Shown: positions 26,629 through 44,016 of the stretch, one piece after another | Position numbering within the stretch: position 1 is the stretch's first letter | How the letters are laid out: every line of letters begins with the position of its first letter | Assembly: GCF_000024365.1 (NCBI RefSeq) | Contig: NC_013235.1 | Span: forward strand, 2,294,001-2,358,000 | From: Nakamurella multipartita DSM 44233 | Lineage (GTDB): Bacteria; Actinomycetota; Actinomycetes; Mycobacteriales; Nakamurellaceae | Direction of reading: 5' to 3' | DNA length: 64,000 nucleotides | Translations under genes and position numbers: made by a program | Notes under the pieces: model-generated | Seen by the model: only the letters and a program-made list of their open reading frames with translations | Databases searched by the model: none | Told to the model about the DNA's origin: nothing

Positions 26629-27521
26629 GCCGGCATTCGCTGCGCGCGGCCATCCTGGACGCCACCCGCACCCTGGAGGCGGCGGGGGTGGCCAGCGCGG
26701 ACGTCGACGCGCAGGAACTGGCCGCGCATCTGATGGGCGTGCCGCGAACCCGGCTGGGCCTGACCCCGCTGGTCGAGCAGTCCTTCCTGACCGACTACCA
26801 GGCCCTGGTGGAGCGCCGTGCGCAGCGGATCCCGCTGCAGCACCTGACCGGGTCGGTCCAGCTGGGCCGGGCCACCGTTGCGGTCGGACCCGGGGTGTTC
26901 GTCCCCCGCCCGGAGACCGAGTCGCTGCTGGTCTGGGCCCTGCATGCGATCGCCGCCGTGGAACGGCCGGTCGTGGTCGACCTGTGCACCGGCAGCGGAG
27001 TGCTGGCCCTGGCCATCGCCGCCGAACGGCCCGACGCCCGGGTGATCGGAGTGGAACGCTCCTCCGCCGCCCTGGCCTGGGCCCGGCGCAACGTGACCAA
27101 CGCCGGGGCCGGCCGGACCAAAGTCGAGCTGCGCGGAGGGGACATCTTCGACGAGCGGTTGCTGGTCGACCTGGAGGGTCTGGCCGACCTGGTCACCGCC
27201 AACCCGCCCTACGTGCCCGAGGGCACCGCGGTCGAACCCGAGGTGGCTGACCACGATCCGCCCGAGGCGGTGTTCGCCGGACCGGACGGGCTGGCGGTCA
27301 TCCGGCCGCTGCTCTCGGTGGCCGCGAGCCTGCTCAAGCTCGGGGGAGTGCTGGCCATCGAGCACGACGACAGCCACGGCGAGACGGTGCCCGCGTTGCT
27401 CCGGTCGCGGCGGGTGCTCACCGACGTCGAGGACCACTCCGACCTGGCCGGCCGCCCGCGGTTCGTCACCGCCACCCGGGTGCGGATGACGACGGGCGCC
27501 GGGAAGACTGGCACACCGTGA
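26625..27521 (+). CDS. prmC: Release factor glutamine N5-methyltransferase
   Basis: A 298-residue SAM methyltransferase acting on the GGQ Gln of release factors. The N-terminal helical domain is followed by a SAM-binding motif [16 protein letters not shown] and the catalytic NPPY in [11 protein letters not shown]. It overlaps both prfA and the next gene by 4 bases. Confidence 0.95.
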
Positions 27522-28168
27522 CCACCTTCGACTGCTCCGACCCGATCGAACGGCGGGCCGGCCTGGAGGCCGCCGCGCACGCGGCGACGTCCGGCCACCT
27601 CGTCGTGCTGCCCACCGACACCGTCTACGGCATCGGCGCCGATGCCTTCAACGCGGCCGCCGTCCGGGCCCTGCTGGCCGCCAAGGGCCGCGGTCCCGAC
27701 ATGCCCGTGCCGGTGCTCGTCGGCTCCTGGACGACCATCGACGGCCTGGTGATGGCCGTGCCGCCGGTGGCCCGCACCCTGGTCGAGGCGTTCTGGCCGG
27801 GTGGGTTGTCCCTGGTGGTGGAGCATGCGCCCTCACTGCAGTGGGACCTGGGCGATGCCAAGGGCACGGTGATGCTGCGGATGCCGCTGCATCCGGTGGC
27901 GATCGACCTGTTGCGGCTGGTCGGGCCGATGGCCGTGTCCAGCGCCAACCGCAGCGGCAACCCACCGGCCACCACCGCCGCCGATGCGCAGGCTCAGCTG
28001 GGCGAGCAGGTGTCGGTCTATCTGGACGGCGGGCCGTCGCCGATCGGCGTGGCCTCCACCGTCGTCGACGTGACCGGGGAGATCCCGCGGGTGTTGCGAG
28101 TGGGGGCGGTCCCGTTGGATCGGCTGCGGGACGTGGTCGGCGCGGTCGAGGACGCCACCGCCCGCTGA
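27518..28168 (+). CDS. L-threonylcarbamoyladenylate synthase (Sua5/YrdC)
   Basis: A 216-residue enzyme making threonylcarbamoyl-AMP for t6A in ANN-decoding tRNAs. The signature PTDTVYGIGADAFN and the C-terminal SSANRSGNPPATT and STVVDVTG are clear. Single YrdC domain plus short tail. The GTG start overlaps the prmC stop. In the conserved order the next gene should be wecA; here the 13.5-kb catabolic locus intervenes. Confidence 0.93.
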   Translation: MTTFDCSDPIERRAGLEAAAHAATSGHLVVLPTDTVYGIGADAFNAAAVRALLAAKGRGPDMPVPVLVGSWTTIDGLVMAVPPVARTLVEAFWPGGLSLVVEHAPSLQWDLGDAKGTVMLRMPLHPVAIDLLRLVGPMAVSSANRSGNPPATTAADAQAQLGEQVSVYLDGGPSPIGVASTVVDVTGEIPRVLRVGAVPLDRLRDVVGAVEDATAR

Positions 28169-28191
28169 CGTCGGGCGCTCGTCGATCTCTG

Positions 28192-28239
28192 TTCACACCG
28201 GCGTCGTGCACGCTACGCTCTTTTCGAACACGGGTGTTC
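28192..28239 (+). promoter_or_regulatory. Promoter and candidate operator of the XRE-cupin gene
   Basis: -35 TTCACA (28192-28197), 16-base spacer, -10 TACGCT (28214-28219). Just after it lies the perfect dyad GAACAC-GG-GTGTTC (28226-28239), a likely repressor site at the transcription start. The -35 is within TGTTCACA, a sequence repeated at the promoter of the ABC operon. Confidence 0.5.
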
Positions 28240-28268
28240 TGTCGTGGCGCACAAGGGGGGTTGCCGAC

Positions 28269-29018
28269 GTGACCGGTGCGGAGTCTGCGGCCCCCGAACC
28301 GGCCGGGACGGCGCGTGGCGGGGTGGGCGAACGCATTCGCGCGGCCCGCGAGGCGGCCCGCATCAGCGTGCGGGAACTGGCCCGCCGGGTCGAGGTCTCG
28401 CCCAGTCACGTCTCCCAGGTCGAACGGGGGCTGGCCTCGTTCAGCGTGCGCACGCTGTACAACGTGGCCAGCGAACTGGGCCTGTCCATGGACACGCTGT
28501 TCGACGACACCCCGGCGGTGGCCAGCCGGCCCCGGGAGCGCAGGGACGCGATCGACCCGCCGTCCGGCCCGGCCCGGGCCGAGGGCGAGGACTCGCTGGT
28601 CGACAGCGGCATCGTGCTCCGGGTGGCCGACCGTCCGGCCATCCCGCTGGCCGGCGGCACCCGGTGGGAGCGGCTGACCGCCCGACCGGAACGGGACGCG
28701 GAGTTCATCGAGGTGGTCTACCCGCCGGCCGGCCCGGCCTCGGCCCGTCCCAAGGACTTCATCCAGCACGCCAGCCGCGAGTACGGGCTCGTGGTGGCCG
28801 GGACGTTGACGGTGCAGGTCGGCTTCGACGTGACCACCCTGCGCGCCGGTGACTCGATCGCCTTCGACTCCGTGGTCCCGCACCGCTTCTGGAACGAGAC
28901 CGCCGAGGAAGTCCGCGCCGTCTGGTTCATCCGCGACCTGCCCAAGGCGCCCGCGGACGGGCTGCCGGCTCAGGACCCGCACTCGATCCTGCGGGCGCAC
29001 GGGGCGGTCCCCTCCTAG
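28269..29018 (+). CDS. XRE-family regulator with cupin domain
   Basis: A 249-residue transcription factor. The GTG 28269 follows a GGGGGG ribosome site. The N-terminal HTH_3 (about 20-77) includes ISVRELARRVEVSPSHVSQVERG. The C-terminal cupin (about 165-235) includes EYGLVVAGTLTVQVG and GDSIAFDSVVPHRFWNE. Regulators of this type usually bind a small ligand in the cupin and control the adjacent catabolic operon. It is transcribed in the same direction as, and 217 bases before, the ABC operon. Confidence 0.9.
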   Translation: MTGAESAAPEPAGTARGGVGERIRAAREAARISVRELARRVEVSPSHVSQVERGLASFSVRTLYNVASELGLSMDTLFDDTPAVASRPRERRDAIDPPSGPARAEGEDSLVDSGIVLRVADRPAIPLAGGTRWERLTARPERDAEFIEVVYPPAGPASARPKDFIQHASREYGLVVAGTLTVQVGFDVTTLRAGDSIAFDSVVPHRFWNETAEEVRAVWFIRDLPKAPADGLPAQDPHSILRAHGAVPS

Positions 29019-29094
29019 GAGGCTCCGGCCCCACCCGACGGTAGGCCTCTCGCCGCCGCGCCTCCGCGGATCCGGCACGCTCGCCGTGTGCACT

Positions 29095-29169
29095 GTGTTC
29101 TGTCATAGCGAACGTTTCCGATATTTGACCTCGAGAAGTGTTCACAAGTGTGTTGCCAGTATGTACAGT
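29095..29169 (+). promoter_or_regulatory. Promoter of the ABC/catabolic operon with GTGTTC sites
   Basis: -35 TTCACA (29141-29146), 17-base spacer, -10 TACAGT (29164-29169). GTGTTC occurs at 29095-29100 and again at 29138-29143, overlapping the -35. The first pairs with a downstream GAAC (GTTC-N9-GAAC). The same half-site forms the dyad at the XRE-cupin promoter, which suggests a shared regulator. Confidence 0.5.
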
Positions 29170-29235
29170 CTGCGTGACGCCCACCACACGAACTCGGTGG
29201 GGAAGTGACCTTCGGTGCGGAAGGAAACGCGCGGA

Positions 29236-30788
29236 ATGACTGATCAGTCCTCCCTGCTGGAGGGGCCGGACGTGATCCCGGACGAGATCCCCACCGTGAT
29301 CGAGGCCCGGTCGATCACCAAACGGTTCGGGGGCGCGGTCGCGGTGAGCGACGTCAGCGTCGCCGTCTCGGCCGGCGAGATCTACGCGATTGTCGGTGAG
29401 AACGGGGCCGGCAAATCGACGCTGATGCGGGTGCTGGCCGGACTGCTGCACCCGGAGGAGGGCGAGGTCCGGGTCAACGGGCAGGACATCACCGGCGATG
29501 CCCGCGCCGCCCTGGACGCCGGGGTGTCCCTGGTGCACCAGGAACTGAGCCTGGTGCCGGAGATGACCGTGGCCGAGAACATCATGCTGGGCGCGTTCCC
29601 GACCAGGAGCGGGTTCATCTCCGGCCGCCAGCTGCACGCCTACGCCGGTGACGCACTGCGCGAGATCGGCGTCTCGATCGACCTGGACGAGCCGGTGGCC
29701 CGGCTGTCGGTGTCGCTGCGCCAGTTCATTGAGATCGCCCGGGCGGTGGCCCGCAAGCCCAAGGTGCTGATCCTGGACGAGCCCACCGCGACGCTGACCC
29801 CGTCCGAGACCACCTATCTGCTGCAGATGTTGCGTCGGCTGGCCGAGGGCGGGCTGGCCATCATCTACATCTCGCACCGGCTGCCGGAAATCTTCAGCAT
29901 CTGCGACCGGATCACCGTGCTGCGTGACGGCCGGTTCATCGACACCATGCGCACCGCCCAGACCACCGCGGACGAGCTGGTCACCAAGATGGTCGGCCGA
30001 GAACTCAAGCGGGACCTGCAGATCGACCGGGTGAGTCACCCGGGCGAGGTCGTGCTCAGCGCTCGCGGGGTCAGCGCGCCGCGGGTGCACGGGGTGGACC
30101 TGCAGGTCCGGGCCGGCGAGATCGTCGGCCTGGGCGGACTGGTCGGCGCCGGCCGCACCGAGCTGGTTCGGGCGATCCTGGGAGTCGACCCGCGTACGGC
30201 CGGCGAGGTGACGGTGACCGTCGACGGCACGCGACGCCGGATCGGGGGCTACCAGTCGCGGTCACCAGTGGGGTCGCCTACGTGCCCGAGGAGCGCCGGT
30301 CCGACGGCCTGGCCCTGACCATGTCGGTCAGCGACAACATCGCGCTGCCCAACCGGCGGTTCCTGGCCCGGGCCGGTGTGCTCAACCCCAAGCGACAGCA
30401 CGGGTATGCCATGGAACTGGCCGACACGGTCGGCCTGCGCCCGCCGAACGTCAAGCGCGACGCCGGCGACTACAGCGGCGGCAACCAGCAGAAGGTGGTG
30501 CTGGCCAAGTGGTTGGGCCGCAAGCCCCGGGTGATCGTCCTGGACGAACCCACCCGCGGTGTCGACGTCGGCGCGAAGGCCGAGATCCACCGCCTGATCA
30601 GGGATCTGGCCGACGGCGGGACCGCCGTGCTGATCATCAGCTCGGACCTGCCCGAACTGCTCGATCTCGCCGACGTCATCCATGTCATCCGCGACGGCCG
30701 CATCGCCGGCACGCTGGCCCAAGACGAGGCCGACGAGCGCACCGTGATGTCGCTGGCCGCGGGCGGAAGCAAGGTGAGCTCCTCATGA
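29236..30788 (+). pseudogene. Sugar-type ABC importer ATPase (RbsA-like), frameshifted
   Basis: A two-domain ATPase of an importer. The first half shows Walker A GENGAGKST, VHQELSLVPEMTVAENI and Walker B KVLILDEPTA. The second half shows YVPEERRSDGL, the signature YSGGNQQKVVLAKWL and LDEPTRGVDVG. The two halves are in different frames. Frame one runs to 30318; the second half is open from before 30282 to 30788. A run of five G at 30244-30248 is the probable site: six G would restore a continuous protein of about 517 residues reading RIGGLPVAVTSGVAYVPEE. All motifs are intact, so a sequencing error or slippage is as likely as true loss. The chosen ATG has GGAAGGA upstream, and the end overlaps the next gene (ATGA). 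Confidence 0.8.
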
Positions 30789-31795
30789 CCGCGTCTGCCG
30801 TGACCCCGCCGCCGGCGCCGGCGGTCGCCCCGGCCGAGCCCCGCGTACCCACCGCGACCAGGGTGATCGGCTGGATCGCCACCAACGGCATCTTCGTCTT
30901 CACCGTCGTGCTCGTGGTGGGCGCATCGCTGCTGGTCGACGGATTCGCCTCGGCCACCAACATCGGCGATGTGTTCCATCGGGCCGCGCCGATCGGCATC
31001 GTCGCCGTCGGCATGACCTTCGTCGTGATCAGCGGCAACTACCTGGACCTGTCCGTGGTTGCCCAGGTCGCCACGGCGGCGGTCATCCTCATCGGGGTCA
31101 GCAATGGCCACGGGATCGGGCTGGCGATCCTGGCCGCGCTGGTCGTGGCCGGGCTCTATGCCCTGGTCAACGGGGTGGCGGTGGGGTATTTCAAGGCCAA
31201 CGCGGTGATCGTCACCCTGTCCACCACCTATATCGGTCTGGGCGTGCTGCGCTGGCTTTCCGGTGGGAGCATCTTCTTCGGCCCGCCCGACGGCCCGATC
31301 GCCACCTTCGGCGACATCAAGGTGGGGCCGGTGCCGATCTCGGCCGTGGTACTGCTGCTGATGGCCGGGGTGCTCGGATTCGTGTTGAGCCGCACCACCT
31401 TCGGTTTCGTGATCCGCTCGTTCGGGTCGAACAAGGAGGCCACCAGGCTGGCCGGAGTGGCCACCGGTCGGGTGGTGCTGGGCGCGTTCCTGATCACTTC
31501 GATCTCGGCGATGGTGGCCGGCTTCGTGCTGGCCGCGTTCTCCAACACGGCGGTGTCCTCGATGTCGCAGGGCTACGACTTCGGTGCCCTGGCCGCCATC
31601 ATCATCGGCGGCACCAGCGTGTTCGGCGGCCGGGGCAGCGTGTTGCGCACGCTGCTCGGGGTGATCTTCGTCAGCGTGCTGACCAACATCCTGGTGCTCG
31701 CGAACCTGAGCTACGGCTGGCAGCAGGTCGTGATCGGGTCCCTGATCGTGCTGGCTGTTTCGGTGGACGCGCTGGCCCGGCGGGTGAGCGCATGA
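30785..31795 (+). CDS. Sugar-type ABC importer permease 1 (RbsC-like)
   Basis: A 336-residue membrane protein with about nine hydrophobic helices after a Pro/Ala-rich cytoplasmic N-terminus of about 28 residues. The family motifs GMTFVVISGNYLDLSVVAQ, NAVIVTLSTTYIGLG and AAIIIGGTSVFGGRGSVLRT are present. It overlaps the ATPase gene and the second permease gene by 4 bases each. The importer would use a heterodimer of two permeases. Confidence 0.92.
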   Translation: MTASAVTPPPAPAVAPAEPRVPTATRVIGWIATNGIFVFTVVLVVGASLLVDGFASATNIGDVFHRAAPIGIVAVGMTFVVISGNYLDLSVVAQVATAAVILIGVSNGHGIGLAILAALVVAGLYALVNGVAVGYFKANAVIVTLSTTYIGLGVLRWLSGGSIFFGPPDGPIATFGDIKVGPVPISAVVLLLMAGVLGFVLSRTTFGFVIRSFGSNKEATRLAGVATGRVVLGAFLITSISAMVAGFVLAAFSNTAVSSMSQGYDFGALAAIIIGGTSVFGGRGSVLRTLLGVIFVSVLTNILVLANLSYGWQQVVIGSLIVLAVSVDALARRVSA

Positions 31796-32856
31796 GCTCC
31801 GCCAACCTGGTCTTCGGTGCCCCGCCGGAGACGACCCGCGGGCAGCGCTGGACCCGCGCGCTCAAGCGCCGCACCGAGTGGCGCGGAGCCATCCTGCTCA
31901 CGATCGTCGTCGTGGTCGCGTTGCTGTTCGAGCCGCTGGTGTTCAGCGCCTACGACGTCACTTTGAGCCGGGTGGCGCTGGTCGGCCTGGTCGCGATCGG
32001 GCTGACCGTGGTGATCATCATGGGCGAACTGGATCTGAGCGTGGCCAGCACCGTGGTGCTCTCCGGCGTGGTGATGGCCTCGATGCCGAACCTGGTCCTG
32101 GGCGTGCTGGCCGCCCTGGCCACCGGCCTGGTGGTCGGCGCCGTCAACGCCTTCTTCGTCGTCAAGATCGGCATCAACTCCTTCATCGCCACCTTGGGCA
32201 TGCTGTTCGTGCTCCGCGGCCTGGCCCTGGTCCTGTCCAACGCCAAACCCGTGCCGCTGGCCGACATCAGCACGGCGATCGCGTTCGGCATGCCCTTCCT
32301 GGGCCCGCTGACGCCGCGGATCCTGCTGTTCGCCGTGGTCTTCGTGCTTTTGTTGATCTTCCTCACCCGGGTCCGCGCCGGCCGCGAGATCTACGCGGTC
32401 GGCGGCAACCGGCAGGCGGCGCGCGACGCCGGCATTCCGGTCAACCTCCGCTTGGTCACCGGGTTCATGCTCTGTGGTTTCGTCGCCGCACTGGCCGGCG
32501 TGGTCGACACCATGGAGCGCACCGCGGCCGATCCGACCGCCGGTTCCACCATCCTGCTCTCGAGCATCGCCGCGGCCATCATCGGCGGTGTCGCGCTGAA
32601 CGGCGGCCGCGGCTCGATCCTGGGCACCCTGATCGGGGCCCTGTCGCTGGCCATCCTGGAAGTCGGGCTCACCCTCACCGGGGTCCAGGTCGACATCCAG
32701 CAGATCTTCATCGGCGGCGTGCTCCTGCTCGCGGTCATCACCGACCCCGCGAGTCTGCGCGCCGCCGGCGCCTCCGTGCGCACCGTCTTCGCGGGCCGCC
32801 GGGCCCGCGGCACCAAGCCCGATGTCTCCGTCCCGACCACCGCGTCGTCATCCTGA
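31792..32856 (+). CDS. Sugar-type ABC importer permease 2 (RbsC-like)
   Basis: A 354-residue membrane protein. Motifs include GLTVVIIMGELDLSVASTV, INSFIATLGMLFVLRGLALV and AAAIIGGVALNGGRGSILGT. Also near the C-terminus of the membrane part is VRAGREIYAVGGNRQAARDAGI, the loop that contacts the ATPase. A cytoplasmic basic N-terminus (about 1-33) and a C-terminal polar tail frame the helices. ATGA overlap with permease 1. Confidence 0.92.
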   Translation: MSSANLVFGAPPETTRGQRWTRALKRRTEWRGAILLTIVVVVALLFEPLVFSAYDVTLSRVALVGLVAIGLTVVIIMGELDLSVASTVVLSGVVMASMPNLVLGVLAALATGLVVGAVNAFFVVKIGINSFIATLGMLFVLRGLALVLSNAKPVPLADISTAIAFGMPFLGPLTPRILLFAVVFVLLLIFLTRVRAGREIYAVGGNRQAARDAGIPVNLRLVTGFMLCGFVAALAGVVDTMERTAADPTAGSTILLSSIAAAIIGGVALNGGRGSILGTLIGALSLAILEVGLTLTGVQVDIQQIFIGGVLLLAVITDPASLRAAGASVRTVFAGRRARGTKPDVSVPTTASSS

Positions 32857-32875
32857 CGACCGAAAGGACCCGTCC

Positions 32876-33874
32876 ATGCGCGCCACCCGTGTCGCTGTCG
32901 CGACCCTGTCCCTGATCGCCGCCGCCGCCCTGGTTGCCGGTTGCTCCTCCGGCTCGTCCAGCGCGTCGGGCAGCAGCAGTGGTGCCGCAGAGGGCAAGAA
33001 GGTCTACGCCCTGCTGCCGCAGGGCACCGACCAGCCCTACGGCACCGAGTACCTCAAGGCGATGCAGGCCGAGGCCGACAAGGACGGCATCGACCTGACC
33101 ATCACCAACTCGCAGTACGACGCCGACAAGCAGGCCAGCGACTGCCAGGTCGCGGTGGCGGCCAAACCGAATCTGATCATCCTGTGGCCCGCGGTGGCCG
33201 ATGCGGTCCGGCCCTGCCTGGAGCGGGCCAAGGCGGCCGGAATCCCGGTGACGGTCACCAACTCCGACGTCGAGGCCGACGACAAGTCCCTGGTCGTCGC
33301 CTATTCCGGCCCCGACACGATCGGTCAGGGAGCCGCGTCGGCCGAGATCATGTGCGATCTGGCCAAGGGGCAGGCCCTGAACATCCTGGAGATCGACGGG
33401 CTCACCGGCAACACCACCGCCATCAACCGAGCCAAGGGCTTCGCCGACACCATCGCCAGCACGTGCCCGAACGTCAAGGTGCTGGCCGCCCAACCCGGCG
33501 ACTGGAACAAGGACGATGCGCAGACCGTGACCTCGGAAATGCTGACCTCGGTCGGCGCGGCCAACGTCCAGGGCATCTACGCCGCGGACGACACCATGGT
33601 GGCCGGCGCGATCGACGCGCTCAAGGCGCAGAACATCGACCCGAAGTCGTTGATCATCACCTCCATCGGCAACACCAAACTGGGTAATCCGCTGGTGATC
33701 TCGGGTGAGCTGGACGGCACCGTCTTCCAGTCCTCCTCGTGGGACGGGCAGAACGCGATCGTGGTCGCCAACAAGGTGCTCTCGGGGGAGCAGGTCTCCG
33801 GCGATCTGTTCATGCCCTCGGTCAAGGTGACCTCGGCCAACGCGACGGACCCCTCCGTCACCCCGGAGTGGTAA
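32876..33874 (+). CDS. Substrate-binding lipoprotein of the ABC importer
   Basis: A 332-residue extracytoplasmic protein with AAAGGA before its ATG. The signal peptide ends at the lipobox LVAGC with C23, then a Ser/Gly linker. The rest is a type I periplasmic binding fold: KVYALLPQGTDQPYGTEYLKAM, ASDCQVAVAAKPNLIILWP, ILEIDGLTGNTTAINRAKGF and GIYAADDTMVAGAIDALK. This class binds sugars, polyols and some other small molecules; the ligand here is unknown. It is followed by a very stable hairpin. Confidence 0.93.
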   Translation: MRATRVAVATLSLIAAAALVAGCSSGSSSASGSSSGAAEGKKVYALLPQGTDQPYGTEYLKAMQAEADKDGIDLTITNSQYDADKQASDCQVAVAAKPNLIILWPAVADAVRPCLERAKAAGIPVTVTNSDVEADDKSLVVAYSGPDTIGQGAASAEIMCDLAKGQALNILEIDGLTGNTTAINRAKGFADTIASTCPNVKVLAAQPGDWNKDDAQTVTSEMLTSVGAANVQGIYAADDTMVAGAIDALKAQNIDPKSLIITSIGNTKLGNPLVISGELDGTVFQSSSWDGQNAIVVANKVLSGEQVSGDLFMPSVKVTSANATDPSVTPEW

Positions 33875-33901
33875 TCGTCGGACCCATCAGCGTCGGGGGC
33901 G

Positions 33902-33931
33902 GGGTGGGTGCCGGTTCGCCGGCACCCACCC
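33902..33931 (+). promoter_or_regulatory. 13-bp hairpin with TTCG loop inside the operon
   Basis: GGGTGGGTGCCGG and CCGGCACCCACCC pair perfectly around a TTCG tetraloop, 27 bases after the binding-protein stop and before the M24-like gene. No T-tract follows. Such hairpins often protect the 3' end of a binding-protein message and reduce read-through into the next genes. Confidence 0.7.
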
Positions 33932-33968
33932 GGAACGCCCACCGGCCCCTGTCCTTCGGAGTGCACAC

Positions 33969-35255
33969 GTGACGATCACCAGCCCCGCCGCGCCACCCCG
34001 GCCGGCCGCCCCGACCGGGGCGCTCACCCTGGCCGCCCCTGGGCACATGGGTGTCGACTACGAGGCCCGGGTCGACTTCGACCGGTTGCGCCGGTACCGG
34101 ATCGATCGGGCCCGGGCGGCACTGGCGGCCAGCGAGTGCGGCGCGTTCCTGTTGTTCGACTTCTACAACATCCGGTACACGACCTCCACCTGGATCGGTG
34201 GGGCGTTGGGCGACAAGATGATTCGCTACGCGCTGATCACCCGGGACAGCGATCCGGTGCTGTGGGATTTCGGGTCGGCGGTCAAGCATCACCAGTTGCA
34301 CTCGCGGTGGATCCCGGAGCAGAACTACCGGGCCGGGTTCCTGGGATTCCGCGGCGCGGTGGCGCCGACCGTAGGGTTGATGCAGGCCGCCGTGGCCGAG
34401 ATCAAGGGCCTGCTGGTCGAGGCCGGGGTGGCCGACCAGCCGGTCGGGGTGGACATCGTGGAGCCGCCGTTCCTGTTCGAGCTGCAGCGGCAGGGCCTGC
34501 GGGTGGTGGACGCGCAGCAGTCCATGCTGGATGCGCGGTGTATCAAGTCGCCCGACGAGATCGTGCTGCTCAACCAGGCCGCGGCGATGGTCGACGGGGT
34601 CTATCAGGACATCGTGGAGGTCCTCAAGCCGGGGATCCGGGAGAACCAGATCGTGGCGTTGGCCAACCAGCGGCTCTACGAGATGGGCTCCGATCAGGTC
34701 GAGGCGGTCAACGCGATCTCCGGGGAGCGGTGCAACCCGCATCCGCACAACTTCACCGACCGGTTGATCCGCCCGGGTGATCAGGCGTTCTTCGACATCA
34801 TCCACTCCTACAACGGGTATCGGACCTGCTACTACCGCACGTTCGCGGTCGGCAAGGCCACCGCGGCGCAGCGGGACGCCTACACCCGGGCCCGAGAATG
34901 GATGGACCGGGGGATCGCCGGGATCAGGGCCGGGATCGGCACCGACGAGGTCGCCGCATTGTTGCCGCCCGCGCAGGAGTTCGGGTTCGGCACCGAGATG
35001 GACGCGTTCGGCCTGCAGTTCGCGCACGGGCTGGGGCTGGGTCTGCACGAGCGACCGATCATCTCGCGGCTCAACTCGTTCAAGGAACCGGTGGAACTGC
35101 AGGTCGGCATGGTCTTCGCGTTGGAGACCTACTGCCCGGCCAGCGACGGCGTCTCGGCCGCCCGCATCGAGGAGGAGATCGTCATCACCGACACCGGCCC
35201 GAAGATCTTGACCCTGTTCCCGGCCGAGGAACTGTTCGTGGCCAACCCCTACTGA
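33969..35255 (+). CDS. M24-fold protein (creatinase/aminopeptidase-P/DddP superfamily) with an altered metal site
   Basis: A 428-residue cytoplasmic protein with GTG start and GGAG upstream. An N-terminal creatinase-like domain (about 35-190) precedes the pita-bread domain. Canonical M24 metal ligands are two Asp, one His and two Glu. Visible are D276 (FFDIIHSYNGYRTCYYRTF), H353/H360 (FAHGLGLGLHERP), E386 (ALETYCP) and E402 region (ARIEEEIVI). The second Asp is replaced by Tyr (CYYRTF at 287-292). A normal two-metal peptidase is therefore unlikely. M24-fold enzymes that are not peptidases include creatinase, DMSP lyase DddP and ectoine hydrolase DoeA/EutD, so it may open or cleave the imported substrate. 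Confidence 0.85.
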   Translation: MTITSPAAPPRPAAPTGALTLAAPGHMGVDYEARVDFDRLRRYRIDRARAALAASECGAFLLFDFYNIRYTTSTWIGGALGDKMIRYALITRDSDPVLWDFGSAVKHHQLHSRWIPEQNYRAGFLGFRGAVAPTVGLMQAAVAEIKGLLVEAGVADQPVGVDIVEPPFLFELQRQGLRVVDAQQSMLDARCIKSPDEIVLLNQAAAMVDGVYQDIVEVLKPGIRENQIVALANQRLYEMGSDQVEAVNAISGERCNPHPHNFTDRLIRPGDQAFFDIIHSYNGYRTCYYRTFAVGKATAAQRDAYTRAREWMDRGIAGIRAGIGTDEVAALLPPAQEFGFGTEMDAFGLQFAHGLGLGLHERPIISRLNSFKEPVELQVGMVFALETYCPASDGVSAARIEEEIVITDTGPKILTLFPAEELFVANPY

Positions 35256-35347
35256 GCACCGCGCATCCGACCACCCTACGACCGACCACACTGTCACTCC
35301 AGCAACATTTCTCGCCAGCACCGCTCACTCCAGGAAAGGCAAGCTCG

Positions 35348-36151
35348 ATGGATACCACCCGCCTCGCCGGCAAGAACGTGCTCATCACCGGTGGCGCACA
35401 GGGCATGGGCGCCGCCGTCGCCCACTACTACGCCGAGCAGGGCGCCAAGGTGTGCGTGGGGGACGTCAACGTGGACGGCGTCGCCCAGGTCGCGGATGAG
35501 ATCACCGCCAAGGGCGGCACGGCCACCTTCGTCAAGCTCGACGTGACCAGCGAGCAGGACGCGGCTGCCGCCGTCGCGCACACGGTCGAACAGTTCGGCA
35601 GCATCAACGTGCTGCTGAACAACGCGGGCATCAACAAGCCCTTGTTCTTCCTCGACATCACCCGCGAGAACTGGCAGCGCATCATGGATGTCAACGCCTG
35701 GGGGACGATGAACTGCATGCAGGCGGCGGCCCGCCAGATGAAGGCGCAGGGCCGGCAGGACTACCCCTACAAGATCATCAACGTCGGTTCGATCCTGTCC
35801 CGGGACGTCTTTGACGACGTGGTTGTCTACGGCGCGTCCAAGCATGCGGTGCTGGCCCTGATCAAGGGCGGGGCCAAGGCGCTGATCGAACACAACATCA
35901 CCGTCAACGGGTACGGCCCGGGGGTGGTGCGCACGGAGCTGTGGGAGCAACTGGACAAGGACCTGGTGGCGATCGGCAAGTTCGACGCGCCGGGTAAGTC
36001 CATGGACCAGCTGGCCGAGACGATGATCTTGATGAAGCGCTACTCCTACCCCAAGGACGTCGTGGGCACGGCGGCCTTCCTGGCCAGCCCGGAGAGCGAC
36101 TACATGACCGGTCAGCTGCTGATGATCGACGGCGGCATGGTGATCCAGTGA
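35348..36151 (+). CDS. Short-chain dehydrogenase/reductase
   Basis: A 267-residue NAD(P)-dependent SDR. GGAAAGG precedes the ATG. The cofactor loop is TGGAQGMG (14-21), and D39 (VGDVN) suggests NAD. NNAG is present, and the catalytic residues are S148, Y161 and K165 (VVYGASK). C-terminal IDGG. It resembles butanediol/acetoin and polyol dehydrogenases. It lies between the M24-like protein and an aldehyde dehydrogenase and probably oxidises an alcohol intermediate of this pathway. Its stop overlaps the next start (GTGA). Confidence 0.93.
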   Translation: MDTTRLAGKNVLITGGAQGMGAAVAHYYAEQGAKVCVGDVNVDGVAQVADEITAKGGTATFVKLDVTSEQDAAAAVAHTVEQFGSINVLLNNAGINKPLFFLDITRENWQRIMDVNAWGTMNCMQAAARQMKAQGRQDYPYKIINVGSILSRDVFDDVVVYGASKHAVLALIKGGAKALIEHNITVNGYGPGVVRTELWEQLDKDLVAIGKFDAPGKSMDQLAETMILMKRYSYPKDVVGTAAFLASPESDYMTGQLLMIDGGMVIQ

Positions 36152-37608
36152 CCGCACCACCGACCGTCGAGATCGTCGGCGGCGTGGAAGTTCCCACCGG
36201 TTTGTTCATCGGGGGGCAGTGGATTCCGGGCGAGCGGACGCTGGATGTCCGCGACCCGGCCGCGGACCGCCGGTTGTCCGGGGTGGCCGACGCCGGCGTG
36301 ACCGACGCCCTGGACGCGGTCTCCGCCGCGCACGCGGCGTTCGGGCCGTGGGCGAGCGCGGCCCTACGGACCAGAGCGGAGATCCTGCGCCGGGCCTTCG
36401 AGATCATGACCGCCGAACTGGACGAGTGCGCGCGGCTGATCGTGCTGGAGAACGGCAAGTCCTGGGCCGACGCCCGCGGGGAGGCGGCCTACGCCGCCGA
36501 GTTCTTCCGCTGGTTCAGCGAGGAGGCCTGCCGGGTGCCGGGTGACTTCCGGATGGCGCCGGCCGGCGACAAGACCATCGTGGTCGACCACCGGCCGGTG
36601 GGGGTGGCCTACCTGATCACCCCGTGGAACTTTCCGGCCGCCATGGCCACCCGCAAGCTGGCTCCGGCGCTGGCCGCCGGCTGTACCGCGGTGCTCAAGC
36701 CGGCCGGGGAAACCCCGCTCACCGCACTGTGGGTCGCGCGAGTACTGCAACGAGCCGGTGTGCCCGACGGGGTGGTCAACGTGATCGCGACCTCCCGGCC
36801 GGGACCGGTCTCGGAGTTGGTGCTGGCCGACCGGCGGGTCGGTGCGCTCTCGTTCACCGGATCGACGCCGGTCGGCAAGATCCTGCTCGGCCAGACCGCT
36901 CGGCGCGCCTTGCCCTCGTCGATGGAACTGGGTGGCAACGCGCCCCTGCTGGTGCTCGAAGGGGCCGATGTGCAGGACGCCGTGGCCGGCGCGATGGTGG
37001 CCAAGATGCGCAACGGCGGCAGCGCCTGCACGGCGGCCAACCGGTTCTACGTCCACGAGTCGCTGGTCACCGAGTTCGCCGATGCGTTCGAAAAGGCCTT
37101 GAGCACACTGTCGATCGGTTCCGGCCTGGACCCGGCGAACGACCTGGGCGCGCTGGTCAGCGTGCGCGAGCGGGACAAGGTACTCGACCTGGTCCGGCGG
37201 GCCGAGCAGGAGGGCGGCCGCCCATCGGCCTCGGGTACGGCGCCGACCACGGGTGCGTTCCTGTCGCCGTACGTGGTGCGTGGCGTACGGCACGGGCAGA
37301 CGCTGACCCGCGAGGAGATTTTCGGTCCGGTGGCGCCGATCGTCACGGTGGACAGCACCGACCAGGCGATCGCGATGGCCAACGACACCGACTACGGGCT
37401 CATCTCCTACGTTTTCGCCAAGGACCGGGCCGAGGGCATCTCGGTGGCCCGGCGGCTGGAGTCGGCCATGGTCGCGGTGAACCGCGGCGTGGCCTCGGAT
37501 CCGGCCGCTCCGTTCGGCGGGATGAAGGAGTCAGGCCTGGGCCGGGAGGGCGGCTTCGCGGGGATCCACGAGTTCCTGGAAACCCAGTACATTGCCGTCG
37601 ATCTCTGA
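36148..37608 (+). CDS. NAD(P)-dependent aldehyde dehydrogenase (succinate-semialdehyde type)
   Basis: A 486-residue ALDH. The oxyanion Asn is in TPWNFP. E260 (SSMELGGNAP) is the general base and C294 (NGGSACTAANRF) the nucleophile. SFTGSTPVGK is the cofactor turn. The order of motifs and the C-terminal GGMKESGLGREGG place it near succinate-semialdehyde dehydrogenases, but substrate cannot be set from sequence. GTG start overlapping the SDR stop. The next gene begins close to or inside its end. Confidence 0.93.
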   Translation: MTAPPTVEIVGGVEVPTGLFIGGQWIPGERTLDVRDPAADRRLSGVADAGVTDALDAVSAAHAAFGPWASAALRTRAEILRRAFEIMTAELDECARLIVLENGKSWADARGEAAYAAEFFRWFSEEACRVPGDFRMAPAGDKTIVVDHRPVGVAYLITPWNFPAAMATRKLAPALAAGCTAVLKPAGETPLTALWVARVLQRAGVPDGVVNVIATSRPGPVSELVLADRRVGALSFTGSTPVGKILLGQTARRALPSSMELGGNAPLLVLEGADVQDAVAGAMVAKMRNGGSACTAANRFYVHESLVTEFADAFEKALSTLSIGSGLDPANDLGALVSVRERDKVLDLVRRAEQEGGRPSASGTAPTTGAFLSPYVVRGVRHGQTLTREEIFGPVAPIVTVDSTDQAIAMANDTDYGLISYVFAKDRAEGISVARRLESAMVAVNRGVASDPAAPFGGMKESGLGREGGFAGIHEFLETQYIAVDL

Positions 37609-38206
37609 TCAGCCGGGGACCGGGGAGGTCCCCGGTCCCGGGTTGCCGGGACTGACCGGCCTGGACCACATCGGTGTCACTGTGCCCGATCTCGAGGCGG
37701 CCCGGCGGTTCTTCGTCGACGTGCTTGGCTGCGAGTTCCTCTACGCCCTCGGACCCAAGCGCGACCCGACCGGTGACTGGATGCAGCGCACCCTGAACGT
37801 GCATCCCCGGGCCACCATCGACCAGATCTACTTCTTCCGGTGCGGGGGCCAGGCCGTCTTCGAGGTGTTCGAGTACTCGGCGCCGGACCAGCACACCGAC
37901 TGGCCCCGTAACAGCGACCTGGGCGGCCACCACGTGGCCCTGTATGTGACCGATCTGGACGCCGCCGTCGAGTTTCTGCGGGGGCGGCCCGAGGTCACGG
38001 TGCTCGGTGAGCCCGTGGTCAGCTCGGGCCATCACCTGGGCCAGCGCTGGATCTATTTCCTTTCCCCCTGGGGCATGCAGTTCGAGCTGGTGTCCTACCC
38101 GCAGGGCAAGGCCTTCTTCCGCCGGCCGGCGGCCGAGGCTTCCGCCCCGGGCGCACCGCCGCCGCGGGATCCCGATCGCAAGGACAGTGATGACGGCACG
38201 ACATGA
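37592..38206 (+). CDS. VOC-superfamily protein (glyoxalase/extradiol dioxygenase fold)
   Basis: Up to 204 residues. The start is uncertain. TTG 37592 would overlap the aldehyde dehydrogenase by 17 bases and has no ribosome site. TTG 37643 follows GGGGAGG and gives 187 residues. Two beta-alpha-beta modules are visible: LDHIGVTVPDLEAARRFFVD (metal His) and HHVALYVTDLDAAVEFL (second His), ending with MQFELVSYP (metal Glu). The H-H-E set fits a metal-dependent VOC enzyme. Reaction unknown; possibly a lyase or isomerase of the same pathway. Confidence 0.8.
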   Translation: MPSISDQPGTGEVPGPGLPGLTGLDHIGVTVPDLEAARRFFVDVLGCEFLYALGPKRDPTGDWMQRTLNVHPRATIDQIYFFRCGGQAVFEVFEYSAPDQHTDWPRNSDLGGHHVALYVTDLDAAVEFLRGRPEVTVLGEPVVSSGHHLGQRWIYFLSPWGMQFELVSYPQGKAFFRRPAAEASAPGAPPPRDPDRKDSDDGTT

Positions 38207-40370
38207 TTTGACCCCGGCCGCGCCGTGGACCGAGATCGAAGTCACGGACGCGGACTGGGAGGCCGCGGATCCCGACCTGCTCACGGCCATGTACAGCCAG
38301 CTGGTGCTCATCCGGACGTTCGAGGAGACCGTGCTCGAGCTGTCGGCGGCCGGGCTGATCCACGGGCCGGCCCATTCCAGCATCGGCCAGGAGGGCGGCG
38401 CGGTCGGTTCGACGATCGGGCTGACCAGTCAGGACACGGTCAACGGCACGCATCGAGGCCACCACCAGTTCCTGGCCAAGGTGCTCGGCCACCTGGCCCC
38501 GGCCGGCATCGACCCGCGCGCGCCGATCCCGACCGACGTGCGCGCCGAGCTGCTCCGCACCCTGGCCGAAATCTGCGGCTTGGAAAGGGGTTTCAGTCAC
38601 GGCCGGGGCGGCTCGATGCACCTGATGAGCAAGCCGGCCGGGGCGATCGGCACCAACGCCATCGTCGGCGGGGGAGTGCCGCTGGCAGCTGGGTCGGCCT
38701 GGGCGCACCGGCAGGCCGGGACCGATGCGGTGGCCGTCACCTACTTCGGCGACGGCGCCGCCAATATCGGGTCCACGCTGGAGACCTTCAACCTGGCCGC
38801 CGCGTGGAACCTGCCGCTGTGCTTCTTCATCGAGAACAACCGCTACGCCGTGTCCACCTCGGTGCACGAGGCGACCAAGGAGCCTCGGCTGTCCGCGCGG
38901 GGCCCCGGATTCGGCATCGCCAGCTGGAAGGTCGACGGGATGAACCCGTTCGCGGTCTTCCTGACCATGCAGGAGGCGTTGGCGCACATGCGGTCCGGGC
39001 GCGGCCCGACGGTGATCGAGGCCGACGTGTACCGGTTCTTCCACCAGAACGGCGCCTTCCCCGGCAGCGCCTTCGGCTATCGCAGCAAGGCCGAGGAACA
39101 GCAGTGGCGCGAGCGCGACCCGATCGCCCAGGTCGCCGGCCAGCTGGTGCGCCGGCACATCCTCACGCCCGCGGACCTGGACGCCTTCGGTACGCAGGCC
39201 GCGACGGTGCTGGCCGAGCTGGCCGATGTGCTGGTCGAGCCGGTGCCCGGAGGGCGGGCGGGGCAGCGGCGGATCAGGGCGGCCGAGTGGCCGGACCCGG
39301 CATTCGTCGACGTCGGGGTCCGCGGCGACCTGTCCGAGTTCGCCGGCGCACCGCTGGCCGACGTGGACAGCTACGCCGGCTCGCTCCAACCGGACACCGT
39401 CTTCGTCGAGGCCATCGCCGCCGTGCTGGGCCGGCAGCTGGCGACCGATCCGCGCGTCCTGGTGCTGGGGGAGGATGTTCACCGGCTCAACGGCGGCACC
39501 AACGGGGCCACCCGGGGCCTGGCCGAACGCTTTCCCGACCGCATCCTGGGCACCCCCATCAGCGAGAACGCGTTCACCGGACTGGCCGGCGGGATCGCCC
39601 TGGACGGCCGGTTCCGGCCGATCGTCGAGTTCATGTACGCCGACTTCATGTGGGTGGCCGCCGACCAGCTGTTCAACCAGATCGGCAAGGCCCGGCACAT
39701 GTTCGGCGGCGACGACCCCGTTCCCTTCGTGCTGCGCAGCAAGGTGGCCATGGGCACCGGGTACGGCTCCCAGCACTCGATGGACCCGGCCGGCATCTTC
39801 GCCACCGCGGCCGGATGGCGGATCGTCGCACCCTCGACCCCGTTCGACTACGTCGGCCTGATGAACAGCGCCCTGCGCTGCGCGGACCCGGTCCTGGTGC
39901 TCGAACACGTCGATCTGTACCGCAGCACCGGGCCCGGTCCGGTCGACGACCTGGACTACTGCCTGCCGGTCGGCCGGGCAGCGATCCGCCGAGCCGGCAC
40001 GCAGCTCACGGTGCTGACCTACCTAGCGATGACCAACTACGTGCTGACTGCGGTCCAGGACCTGGGCACCGTCGACGCCGAGGTCATCGACCTGCGCTGG
40101 CTGGACCGGGCCAGCATCGACTGGGACACCATCGGCGCCAGCATCCGCAAGACCGGCAACGTGGTGATCGCCGAGCAGGGCGCCCTGGGCACCTCCTACG
40201 GCAGCTGGCTGGGCGATGAGATCCAGCGGCGGTACTTCGACTGGCTCGACCAGCCGGTGCAACGGATCACCGGCGGCGAGGCCTCGCCCAGCATCAGCAA
40301 GGTGCTCGAGCGCGCAGCCATCGCCCAGGACGCCGAGGTCGTGGCCACCCTCACCGAGATCATGAAGTAG
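38190..40370 (+). CDS. Thiamine-dependent dehydrogenase E1, alpha and beta fused
   Basis: A 726-residue protein starting at ATG 38190 (AAGGA upstream), overlapping the VOC gene by 17 bases. The N-terminal half is an E1-alpha, with the TPP motif GDGAANIGSTLETFNLAAAW ending in ENN (about 187-217) and HRGHHQFL. The C-terminal half (from about 400) is an E1-beta: VLVLGEDVHRLNGGTNGATRGL, GTPISENAFTGLAGGIAL, PTGGEASP-like TGGEASPSI. Most relatives use two separate chains. Fused forms exist in acetoin- and branched-chain-type complexes. It should act on a 2-oxoacid or acetoin-like ketone, passing the acyl group to the E2 encoded next. Confidence 0.92.
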   Translation: MTARHDLTPAAPWTEIEVTDADWEAADPDLLTAMYSQLVLIRTFEETVLELSAAGLIHGPAHSSIGQEGGAVGSTIGLTSQDTVNGTHRGHHQFLAKVLGHLAPAGIDPRAPIPTDVRAELLRTLAEICGLERGFSHGRGGSMHLMSKPAGAIGTNAIVGGGVPLAAGSAWAHRQAGTDAVAVTYFGDGAANIGSTLETFNLAAAWNLPLCFFIENNRYAVSTSVHEATKEPRLSARGPGFGIASWKVDGMNPFAVFLTMQEALAHMRSGRGPTVIEADVYRFFHQNGAFPGSAFGYRSKAEEQQWRERDPIAQVAGQLVRRHILTPADLDAFGTQAATVLAELADVLVEPVPGGRAGQRRIRAAEWPDPAFVDVGVRGDLSEFAGAPLADVDSYAGSLQPDTVFVEAIAAVLGRQLATDPRVLVLGEDVHRLNGGTNGATRGLAERFPDRILGTPISENAFTGLAGGIALDGRFRPIVEFMYADFMWVAADQLFNQIGKARHMFGGDDPVPFVLRSKVAMGTGYGSQHSMDPAGIFATAAGWRIVAPSTPFDYVGLMNSALRCADPVLVLEHVDLYRSTGPGPVDDLDYCLPVGRAAIRRAGTQLTVLTYLAMTNYVLTAVQDLGTVDAEVIDLRWLDRASIDWDTIGASIRKTGNVVIAEQGALGTSYGSWLGDEIQRRYFDWLDQPVQRITGGEASPSISKVLERAAIAQDAEVVATLTEIMK

Positions 40371-40380
40371 GGCGACGACG

Positions 40381-41694
40381 ATGGCACACCTGTTGCGCAT
40401 GCCCGAGGTCGCCGCCGGCGGCACCCGCGCCGTGCTGGCCACCTGGTCGGTCGCCGAGAACGCCGCCTACACGGAACGGGACACCCTGGCCGAGATCGAG
40501 ACCGACAAGGCGACCGTTGATCTGGACGCCGACGCGGACGGCGTCGTGCTGCGACTGCTGGTCGCCGCCGGGGCCGAGGTCGGCGTCGGCGACCCGATCG
40601 CGCTGCTCGGCGGCCCGGACGAGCGGGAGGGGGACGTTGCCGCCCTGCTCGCCGGATTCGGTGTGCCCACGAACCCGGCCAGCGGCCCGGGACCGCAGAC
40701 GCGGGCCGAGCCGGACGCGGCCGGGTCGGTCGGGGGCTCGCCAGCGGCCGAGGGCACCTCGCCCGAGGAGGGTCCGGCGCGCCTGTTCGCCAGCCCGCTG
40801 GCCCGAACGCTGGCCCGGGCGGCCGGGCTCGACCTCACGCGTCTGGCACCCGACTCGGGCCCGGGTGGCCGGATCCGCCGGGTCGACGTCCAGGCGGCCC
40901 TGGCCGACCGCGACGGCGCTTCGGAGTCGCGGGCGCCGTCCGGCCCGGGGGACGGGGCCCCGCCGGGCGGCCGGCCGGTGTCCGATGGACGCACCGAGCC
41001 GGTGCCGCCCGGTGCCGGCTTCGTCGACCTGCCGCACTCCCGATCGCGTCGGGCCATCGCCACCCGGTTGACCGAGAGCGCCCGGACGGTGCCGCACTTC
41101 TACCTGGAGGGCACCGCCCGGGTGGACGCGTTGCTAGCCCTCCGGCGCGAGCTCAACGAGGACGCTCCGCGACGGATCTCGATCAACGACCTGATCGTCA
41201 AGGCGGCCGCGCGGGCTCACCGGCTGGTGCCCGAGCTGAACGTGATCTGGACCCCGCAGGCGGTGCGCCGCTTCGACCATGTCGACATCGGGGTGGCGGT
41301 CGCCGCCGAGCGCGGACTGGTCACCCCGACCCTGCGGGGGGTGGACACGCTGTCCATCGGCGCGGTCGCCGAGCAGACCGCCGATCTGATCCGGCGGGCG
41401 GACGCCGGCCGGCTCCGACCCGAGGAACTGACCGGCGGGGCCTTGTGCGTGACCAACCTGGGCATGTTCGGCACCGAGCGGTTCAGCGCGATCATCAACC
41501 CGCCGCAGTCGGCCATCCTGGCGGTCGGCGCGGCCCGCGAGGAGCCGATCGTGGTCGACGGGCGGCTGGCGGTGGGCACCGTGCTGAAGGTGACGGTGTC
41601 GGTGGATCATCGGGCGGTCGACGGCCGGGAGGCGGCCGGCTGGCTGCGGACCTTCCTGGCGATCCTGGAAAAGCCGGTGCGCATCCTGACCTGA
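40381..41694 (+). CDS. Dihydrolipoamide acyltransferase (E2)
   Basis: A 437-residue E2. The lipoyl domain carries K43 in EIETDKATVDL. A peripheral-subunit-binding domain (about 136-178) contains ASPLARTLARAAGLDLTRL and GPGGRIRRVDV. Two Pro/Gly/Ala-rich linkers flank it. The acyltransferase core ends with H410 and D414 in SVDHRAVDG. It lies 10 bases after the E1 gene. No lipoamide dehydrogenase (E3) gene is in the window, so it must use one encoded elsewhere. Last gene of the operon. Confidence 0.93.
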   Translation: MAHLLRMPEVAAGGTRAVLATWSVAENAAYTERDTLAEIETDKATVDLDADADGVVLRLLVAAGAEVGVGDPIALLGGPDEREGDVAALLAGFGVPTNPASGPGPQTRAEPDAAGSVGGSPAAEGTSPEEGPARLFASPLARTLARAAGLDLTRLAPDSGPGGRIRRVDVQAALADRDGASESRAPSGPGDGAPPGGRPVSDGRTEPVPPGAGFVDLPHSRSRRAIATRLTESARTVPHFYLEGTARVDALLALRRELNEDAPRRISINDLIVKAAARAHRLVPELNVIWTPQAVRRFDHVDIGVAVAAERGLVTPTLRGVDTLSIGAVAEQTADLIRRADAGRLRPEELTGGALCVTNLGMFGTERFSAIINPPQSAILAVGAAREEPIVVDGRLAVGTVLKVTVSVDHRAVDGREAAGWLRTFLAILEKPVRILT

Positions 41695-41710
41695 GCCGGT
41701 CGCGGCCTCT

Positions 41711-41768
41711 TCCTGAGCCGGCTCAGGAATGCCGAAGGCCCGATCCGACGGCATGTCGTGATCGGGCC
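41711..41768 (+). terminator. Double hairpin ending the catabolic operon
   Basis: An 18-bp perfect palindrome, TCCTGAGCC-GGCTCAGGA (41711-41728), is followed by GGCCCGATC (41737-41745) pairing with GATCGGGCC (41760-41768). An inner CGAC/GTCG stem extends that second hairpin. Together they make a strong T-poor terminator 16 bases after the E2 stop. Confidence 0.65.
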
Positions 41769-42106
41769 TGCGGGCAGCTCCCGGCGTGGGGCTCGTGTTC
41801 AGTGCGGCATTTCACTGCTTCAACTCACTGCGCAACGCTGACCCGCCTGGCGTGCTGTCGGGGGCGATGGCCGGGTCCGGGCATCGGACCCGATCGCCTC
41901 CTGGCGAATCGGAGCTACATCATGGGGACGGACGAGTCGGGCGGCCGTTGCGTGGTTTCTCGGTCTCGGTTGGGTAAAGCCGGCCGGACCGGGGCGATGG
42001 TGACTGCCCGTGACCTGCCGGTGGCGCTGCGGCCCCGACGCGGCCGTCGGACGACACCCGTTGATCACCGGCCGGCACTTGGCCCCGGGATCGGTGGCCC
42101 CGCCAC

Positions 42107-42112
42107 TACCCT
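42107..42112 (+). promoter_or_regulatory. -10 element TACCCT, leaderless wecA promoter
   Basis: TACCCT ends six bases before the GTG start at 42119, the same spacing as at argS and nucS. No ribosome site precedes the GTG. Confidence 0.5.
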
Positions 42113-42118
42113 GGGCGG

Positions 42119-43294
42119 GTGACGGGCTACACGCTTCCGCTCCCGGAATACGCCTTGGGGTTCGGGGCTGCGGTGGTCGTGACGTTCCTGCTGACCGGGG
42201 TGGTCCGGCTGGTCGCGGTGCGGGTCGGCGCGGTCTCGCCGATCCGGGAGCGCGACGTGCACTCGTTGCCGACGCCGCGGATGGGCGGGCTGGCGGTCTA
42301 CCTGGGCTTCGCCGCGGCCGTGCTGATGGCCCTGCAGCTGCCGGCGTTGGGGGCGGCCTTCTACACCTCCTCCGAGATCGTCGGGGTGCTGGCCGCAGGC
42401 GGCGTCATCTGCCTGGTCGGGGTGATCGACGACCGTTTCGACCTGGATGCGGTGGCCAAACTGGCCGGACAGATCCTGGCCGCGGGCGTCATGGTGATGT
42501 TCGGCGTGCAATGGCAGGTGCTGTGGTTGCCCAGCAGCGGACCGTCCGGCGGCAGCCTGGTCAGCCTGGACCAGACGCAGGGCATCGTGCTGACCGTGCT
42601 GCTGACCGTCGTGCTGACCAACGCGATGAACTTCATCGACGGGCTCGACGGCCTGCTCGCCGGGGTCGCCGCGATCAGCGCGTTCGCCCTGTTCATCTTC
42701 TCCGCGCGACAACTGGTGCTCTCCGGCGACGACGCGTCTGCCTCCCAGCCGCCGCTGATCGCCGCCGCCCTGCTCGGGGCCTGCATCGGATTCCTGCCGC
42801 ACAACTTCTCGCCGGCCCGGATCTTCATGGGCGATTCCGGATCCATGTTCATCGGGCTGGCCATGGCCGGCGCGACCATCAGCGCCGGCGGCAAGCTGGA
42901 TCCGTCCTCGTTCGGTCCGCGGTCCACCATCGCCCTGCTGGCCCCGCTGATCGTGGCGCTAGCCGTGGTGTTCATCCCGGTATTGGATTTCCTGCTCGCG
43001 GTGATCCGGCGGACCAAGGAGGGGCGGCACCCGTTCAGCGCGGACAACCGGCATCTGCACCACCGCATGCTGGCCATTGGCCACACCCACCGGCAGGCGG
43101 TGCTCATCTTCTACTACTGGGCGTTCGCGTTGGCCGCGGCCGCGGTGGCGCTGAGCTTCGTCAGCTGGCAGGTCGCCATCATCCCCACCGCCGTGCTGTT
43201 CCTGGTGGGACTGATGTTCTCGGTGTGGCCCAGGGTGCGGGCCGGGCGGTTGGCCCGGCGCGAACGGGACCGGATTCCTGCCACACTGCCTTGA
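42119..43294 (+). CDS. wecA: Undecaprenyl-phosphate GlcNAc-1-phosphate transferase
   Basis: A 391-residue polytopic enzyme that loads a sugar phosphate on the lipid carrier, the first step of arabinogalactan-type or related cell-wall polymer synthesis. Motifs of the MraY/WecA family: PTPRMGGLAVY, the Asp pair VGVIDDRFDLDA, NAMNFIDGLDGLLAG, FMGDSGSMFIG, and the cytoplasmic HLHHRML. About eleven hydrophobic helices. It stands directly upstream of the ATP synthase locus, as in mycobacteria (Rv1302). Confidence 0.92.
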   Translation: MTGYTLPLPEYALGFGAAVVVTFLLTGVVRLVAVRVGAVSPIRERDVHSLPTPRMGGLAVYLGFAAAVLMALQLPALGAAFYTSSEIVGVLAAGGVICLVGVIDDRFDLDAVAKLAGQILAAGVMVMFGVQWQVLWLPSSGPSGGSLVSLDQTQGIVLTVLLTVVLTNAMNFIDGLDGLLAGVAAISAFALFIFSARQLVLSGDDASASQPPLIAAALLGACIGFLPHNFSPARIFMGDSGSMFIGLAMAGATISAGGKLDPSSFGPRSTIALLAPLIVALAVVFIPVLDFLLAVIRRTKEGRHPFSADNRHLHHRMLAIGHTHRQAVLIFYYWAFALAAAAVALSFVSWQVAIIPTAVLFLVGLMFSVWPRVRAGRLARRERDRIPATLP

Positions 43295-43348
43295 GTGCCC
43301 TGACCGCCGGCACCGCCCGACCGCGCCGGCCCCGCCCGACCGCCATGA

Positions 43349-43894: not shown

Positions 43895-44016
43895 CCGCAG
43901 CGTTGCCCGTCGGGAGGTCTTCGGATCGGCAAACCTGCAGGCCACAAGGTTGCGAAAGCGTTGCGCCGGTCGGCACGCCGGGTTCCCCGGGTGCGGCGCC
44001 GCCCCTAGGCAACTGA

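Follow-up and report, generated by a model that had tools for sequence, protein, structure and literature searches.

The window, a 64,000-nucleotide stretch of the Nakamurella multipartita DSM 44233 genome (NC_013235.1), contains a catabolic block of about 14 kb. It is flanked by two housekeeping genes, tsaC (27518–28168) and a wecA-like gene (42119–43294), which lie 13,951 bases apart, and comprises the following genes and features.

28206–29018, forward strand: XRE-type helix-turn-helix regulator with a C-terminal cupin domain (Pfam HTH_3, Cupin_2)
29215–30318, forward strand: N-terminal part of a ribose-type (CUT2) ABC transporter ATPase (profile matches)
30509–31795, forward strand: CUT2 permease (BPD_transp_2 at 153–417)
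31792–32856, forward strand: CUT2 permease (profile matches)
32822–33874, forward strand: sugar-type substrate-binding protein, Peripla_BP_4 (profile matches)
33906–33927, forward strand: perfect inverted repeat in the gap that separates the binding-protein gene from the M24 gene; its loop is TTCG (read from the sequence)
33969–35255, forward strand: M24-fold protein with Cys287 at the second metal-Asp position, GTG start, 428 aa (profile and alignments)
35348–36151, forward strand: short-chain dehydrogenase (SDR); best NCBIfam match acetoin reductase, 207.9 bits, under the cut-off of 304
36148–37608, forward strand: aldehyde dehydrogenase (ALDH); best NCBIfam match succinate-semialdehyde dehydrogenase (SSADH), 473.8 bits, under the cut-off of 646
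37592–38206, forward strand: VOC/glyoxalase-superfamily protein (Glyoxalase_4)
38190–40370, forward strand: fused alpha/beta E1 of a 2-oxo-acid (or acetoin-type) dehydrogenase, TPP-dependent, 726 aa
40381–41694, forward strand: E2 dihydrolipoamide acyltransferase (profile matches)

The CUT2 ATPase (29215–30820) shifts frame near 30250, its second half running in another frame at about 30250–30800; the transporter may thus be broken, or the sequence may contain an error. The first 100 or so codons of the 30509–31795 open reading frame overlap this second half, and the true start of the permease lies further in. The inverted repeat at 33906–33927 possibly corresponds to a transcript hairpin. In all 16 congeners compared, the block is absent from this site and tsaC is separated from the wecA-like gene by 68 to 2,523 bases. 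The block was thus either inserted here or lost by the congeners, and its absence from them suggests that it moves as a unit. At the block ends, where traces of mobile elements were looked for, the best direct repeat shared by the two compared stretches measured 10 bases, and no tRNA was found within 26000–44000. Two short tandem repeats lie inside the block. With its transporter, regulator, SDR, ALDH, VOC protein, E1 and E2, this self-contained set supports the small-molecule catabolic role that the original prediction had assigned to the M24 protein, and as an island-like block it offers candidate pathway genes for a substrate search.

The frame proposed for the M24 gene proved correct: it starts with GTG, encodes 428 residues and matches the Peptidase_M24 profile (PF00557) over residues 201–408 with 122 bits against a cut-off of 23. 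In five phmmer alignments with solved prolidases, the best of which places the query segment GYRTCYYRT opposite GYCSDITRT, Cys287 (codon 34827–34829) occupies the second metal-Asp column, Tyr288 the next, and Tyr289 the column usually held by Thr or Ser. The ligand set is therefore D276, C287, H353, E386 and E401, with Y289 in the Thr position and a C-x-Y-R motif following D276. Of the D, D, H, E, E ligands of catalytic M24 metallopeptidases, only the second Asp is missing. The original prediction had rightly called the loss of this Asp and the retention of the first Asp, the His and the two Glu; the replacement, which it took to be Tyr, is in fact Cys, accompanied by the coupled change of Thr/Ser to Tyr at position 289. 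Residues 277–291 hold no Asp, D276 being the first metal Asp, so the ligand has not simply shifted to a neighbouring position, which the prediction had named as the counter-evidence to look for. The observation as a whole is thus partly confirmed.

A first scan of genome contigs, from which the best 80 loci (74–88% identity) were taken, led to an alignment of 94 rows with 86 Cys, 6 Asp and 2 gaps at the C287 column. Rows were later added from 396 phylum genomes (42 matching at E 1e-40 or better), 41 closer genomes and annotated plasmids. The resulting 189 aligned M24 rows, some of which represent the same gene fetched twice, comprise 166 with Cys (139 distinct sequences), 22 with Asp and one with Gln. 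With Cys in 166 of the 189 rows, the motif was judged to be neither a chance event nor a sequencing error, and its conservation in homologues also led to a pseudogene being rejected. Residues D276, Y289, R290, H353, E386, R399 and E401 are kept in every one of the 166 Cys rows. In the 22 Asp rows, position 289 is Ser, Val, Gly, Thr or Ala and never Tyr, so that Cys287 and Tyr289 vary in concert within this sample. The Cys-type members come from Actinomycetota, Rhodobacterales and haloarchaea; all eight haloarchaeal ones read carry GYRSCYYRTF, and Asp stands at the C287 column in one further relative from the haloarchaea (L106).

The sampled members fall into three levels of identity, namely the clade of the window protein together with Rhodobacterales (at least 60%), a second clade (52–57%), and distant Actinomycetota and haloarchaea (33–36%). 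In a 79-row tree, a branch with support of 97/90 sets the 56 Cys rows apart as a single clade from the 22 Asp rows; the Gln row was assigned to neither group. A control tree, made by a fast search with no bootstrap after eleven columns of the motif and the longest three rows had been taken out, again grouped the Cys rows together and required a single change, yet the SH-aLRT of the split was only 11. A single origin of the Cys rows is consequently likely and the simplest reading, short of proof. Judged by its sequences, the Cys branch is a variant of the known M24 superfamily, a separate family in which an altered metal site is fixed. The Cys287–Tyr289 pair provides a simple two-residue rule for telling this branch apart. 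A search of titles and abstract openings, which covered few subscription papers, found nothing on a Cys-type M24 branch or its function.

The metal-free AlphaFold2 model, built from a 36-row alignment, has a pLDDT of 79.8 and a pTM of 0.80, its weak stretches being residues 1–33, 66–69, 71–80 and 255–259. It adopts the pita-bread fold, with VIA-align Z scores of up to 34.7 against M24 chains. The four top Foldseek matches are all chains of the DMSP lyase DddP (E 1.6e-25 to 5e-25). In VIA-align, the ectoine hydrolase DoeA (34.7), an Xaa-Pro dipeptidase (34.5) and DddP (33.6) are about tied, and creatinase (1chm) scores 31.5. The non-peptidases DddP and DoeA, cited as members in the original prediction, do rank with the closest folds, but Xaa-Pro dipeptidases lie just as close.

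This nearness bears on whether the protein could be a conventional Xaa-Pro dipeptidase or aminopeptidase in which Cys is tolerated at a single ligand position. The window protein shares with the Xaa-Pro dipeptidase/aminopeptidase P group (M24B) the fold, four of the five ligands, and H260 and H360, the His residues typical of M24 peptidases, which its own clade also retains and which leave peptidase activity conceivable. Bacterial plasmid records name the homologues Xaa-Pro peptidase, aminopeptidase P or Xaa-Pro aminopeptidase, and the haloarchaeal ones are called M24 family metallopeptidase. However, the window protein differs from that group by the Asp-to-Cys and Thr-to-Tyr changes and by its catabolic block. 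Among the Cys rows, H360 is replaced by Trp in 28/166 and by Tyr in 9/166, and H260 is replaced in 11/166, whereas the Cys–Tyr pair is fixed within a single tree group. Moreover, the annotation next to three Rhodobacterales members shows a catabolic block and neither a peptidase nor a peptide transporter. We consider the peptidase reading quite improbable, and the peptidase name attached to Cys-type M24 proteins is probably wrong.

DddP (NF043017; 4b28, 4rzy) shares similarity over residues 36–421, an N-terminal FDxxNIRY motif and the D/H/E/E ligands; the window protein, however, scores 95.9 bits against the equivalog cut-off of 600, and the DddP-labelled row (L104) and its relatives L103 and L105 have Asp at the C287 column within a D-T-D motif. 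According to a DddP study (PMC4108388), the metal-binding residues common to M24 are invariant within the DddP family, and the window protein has Cys at one of them. DoeA/EutD (TIGR02993; 6twj, 6twk) shares the two-domain fold and a catabolic context, but the score of 56.7 bits lies far below the cut-off of 613, and the profile models scanned named no ectoine gene in the block. Betaine-, ectoine- and creatine-like substrates, suggested in the original prediction, accordingly gain no specific support from these scores, nor from the transporter, which resembles the ribose/arabinose type. Creatinase has in common with the window protein the fold and a catabolic role; it works metal-free and has lost metal ligands, whereas four of five remain here.

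The creatinase precedent nevertheless lends some weight to another chemistry, in which Cys287 is a catalytic nucleophile or base and not a ligand, the site binds one metal or none, and the reaction runs through a thiol intermediate. Invariance of Cys287 and Tyr289 in all 166 Cys rows is what one would expect of catalytic residues. On the other side, D276, H353, E386 and E401 are just as invariant and would be needless in an enzyme devoid of metals; we regard this alternative as unlikely. In the reading we prefer, Cys287 would instead be a metal ligand, its thiolate replacing the bridging carboxylate, as homology suggests. Tyr289 probably faces the same pocket, since alternate residues of one predicted strand would point to the same side. 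To our knowledge, a thiolate-ligated metal site would be the first in the M24 superfamily. Should Cys287 indeed bind metal, it would illustrate how exchanging a single ligand can re-tune a widespread dinuclear hydrolase site.

Such a site might also serve oxygen or radical chemistry, the Cys–Tyr pair tuning a redox-active non-heme-iron enzyme that does not act by hydrolysis. Iron is present in DddP, which has the same fold (PMC4108388). A thiolate and a tyrosine near a dinuclear site would amount to a large electronic change, and annotation places LLM flavin monooxygenases close to some members. Nonetheless, we know of no M24 oxygenase, and the sequence holds nothing that demands a redox role, so that this possibility appears very remote compared with metal-dependent hydrolysis or elimination.

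The neighbours of other members were counted by tblastn (1e-15, at least 45% query coverage, waived for the fused E1) anywhere in each fetched locus, with non-exclusive categories and with the later haloarchaeal loci left out; absences are weak because many loci have short flanks, and the ABC ATPase counts were set aside owing to cross-matching between transporter types. The 84 loci with at least 74% identity contain a HIBADH-type dehydrogenase (79), ALDH (68), VOC protein (37), E1 (37), E2 (22) and RidA (5). The corresponding numbers for the 17 loci at 60–68% are E1 16, HIBADH 11, ALDH 10, SDR 8, E2 4 and RidA 1, and for the 18 loci of the second clade (52–57%) XRE-cupin regulator 11, HIBADH 9, SDR 6, E1 5, ALDH 4 and RidA 2. 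Among the 11 distant loci (33–36%), six contain a PEP-utiliser/PPDK-like gene, and none was found to contain E1 or ALDH. The M24 gene was called separately in 67 of the best 80 contig loci, and in 52 of these 67 a gene of the HIBADH cluster lies directly upstream on the same strand. Partners vary by clade; the window carries an SDR where 79 of the 84 close loci carry the HIBADH-type gene. The recurrence of catabolic partners in the close homologue loci further supports the catabolic setting originally claimed.

Three annotated Rhodobacterales plasmids carry, in a row, SDR, M24, E1 alpha, E1 beta, a lipoyl protein, an ALDH named SSADH, and E2, with LpdA within that stretch in one of them. The fetched loci L138–L150 (60–68%) have E1 mostly without E2; taken with L137 and these three plasmids, E1 is found in 16/17 and E2 in 4/17. 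Of the stretches fetched from eight haloarchaeal plasmids, five have an annotated TPP-binding protein, six an LLM monooxygenase and one RidA. A Pfam scan confirmed the TPP enzyme in both haloarchaeal neighbourhoods scanned and placed Glyoxalase_4 and RidA beside one member. TPP chemistry thus recurs near bacterial and haloarchaeal members, through different TPP families and not at every member. Transporters near the members also differ, being of the CUT2, branched-chain-amino-acid or other types, which makes one substrate shared by the whole family unlikely.

Building on the observed substitution, the co-occurrence of Cys and Tyr, the four retained ligands, the predicted fold and the catabolic block, we propose as somewhat probable that the window protein belongs to a distinct Cys/Tyr branch of M24 and acts as a metal-dependent non-peptidase hydrolase or lyase feeding a TPP enzyme. 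Its substrate is most likely a small polar compound, perhaps nitrogen-containing, that is being broken down. The M24 step would probably be either a metal-assisted elimination as in DddP or an amide hydrolysis as in DoeA, and the data fit either. Its product might then yield a 2-oxo acid or acyloin, directly or via the SDR/HIBADH-type dehydrogenase and ALDH, which the adjacent TPP-dependent E1/E2 could convert to an acyl-CoA. An SDR, an ALDH and an acyl-CoA-forming TPP complex together resemble an acetoin-type or 2-oxo-acid pathway, and RidA near some members suits an enamine or imine intermediate. Overall, the original interpretation is partly supported. A more far-reaching version, offered tentatively and in our judgement doubtful, holds that the bacterial and archaeal members constitute one family of single origin with a D-C-H-E-E plus Y centre, in which a bridging thiolate and a facing tyrosine would carry out a new C–N or C–O/S cleavage whose product would be an enamine or a 2-oxo acid; RidA and TPP enzymes would be its recurrent partners downstream.

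As a specific pathway, we weighed pantothenate breakdown, in which the M24 protein would be a pantothenase (EC 3.5.1.22) releasing pantoate and beta-alanine, and the SDR/HIBADH, ALDH and E1/E2 would convert pantoate into 2-oxoisovalerate and isobutyryl-CoA. The M24 fold is suited to an amide bond with a beta-amino acid, and the alcohol, aldehyde and 2-oxo-acid dehydrogenases of the pantothenate route correspond to the activities of the block genes. However, the E1 alpha part is nearer to human pyruvate dehydrogenase than to the human branched-chain enzyme (134 versus 107 bits), and the Rhodobacterales E1 beta exceeds the cut-off of the pyruvate dehydrogenase E1 beta model (394 versus 321 bits); the window E1 beta part, best matched by a Thermus 2-oxo-acid dehydrogenase among solved structures (187 bits), discriminates less well. 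A decarboxylating dimethylmalate dehydrogenase was not found among the genes scanned, and we give the pantothenase route very little credence beside the general hydrolase or lyase role.

Other pathways were considered in view of RidA, amidohydrolases, flavin monooxygenases and xanthine-dehydrogenase-like genes near some members. No gene set fitted the Rut-like pyrimidine, nicotine, pyrazine or vitamin B6 pathways as we know them. Sulfonamide degradation was likewise rejected: two Paenarthrobacter plasmids carry a 53–56% relative, in one case (L107) near the SulR flavin reductase, which was judged a coincidence. Ten variable neighbours scanned for NCBIfam names all scored under the curated cut-offs among the matches listed. 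The distant Cys-type M24 genes near a PEP-utiliser/PPDK-like gene (L158, L159 and L161–L164), three of the six also near an HMGL-like gene, perhaps represent a separate pathway of the same Cys branch. Halorussus plasmids (L102, L188, L190) have sugE, EthD-domain and LLM monooxygenase genes in the vicinity of their Cys-type M24 gene.
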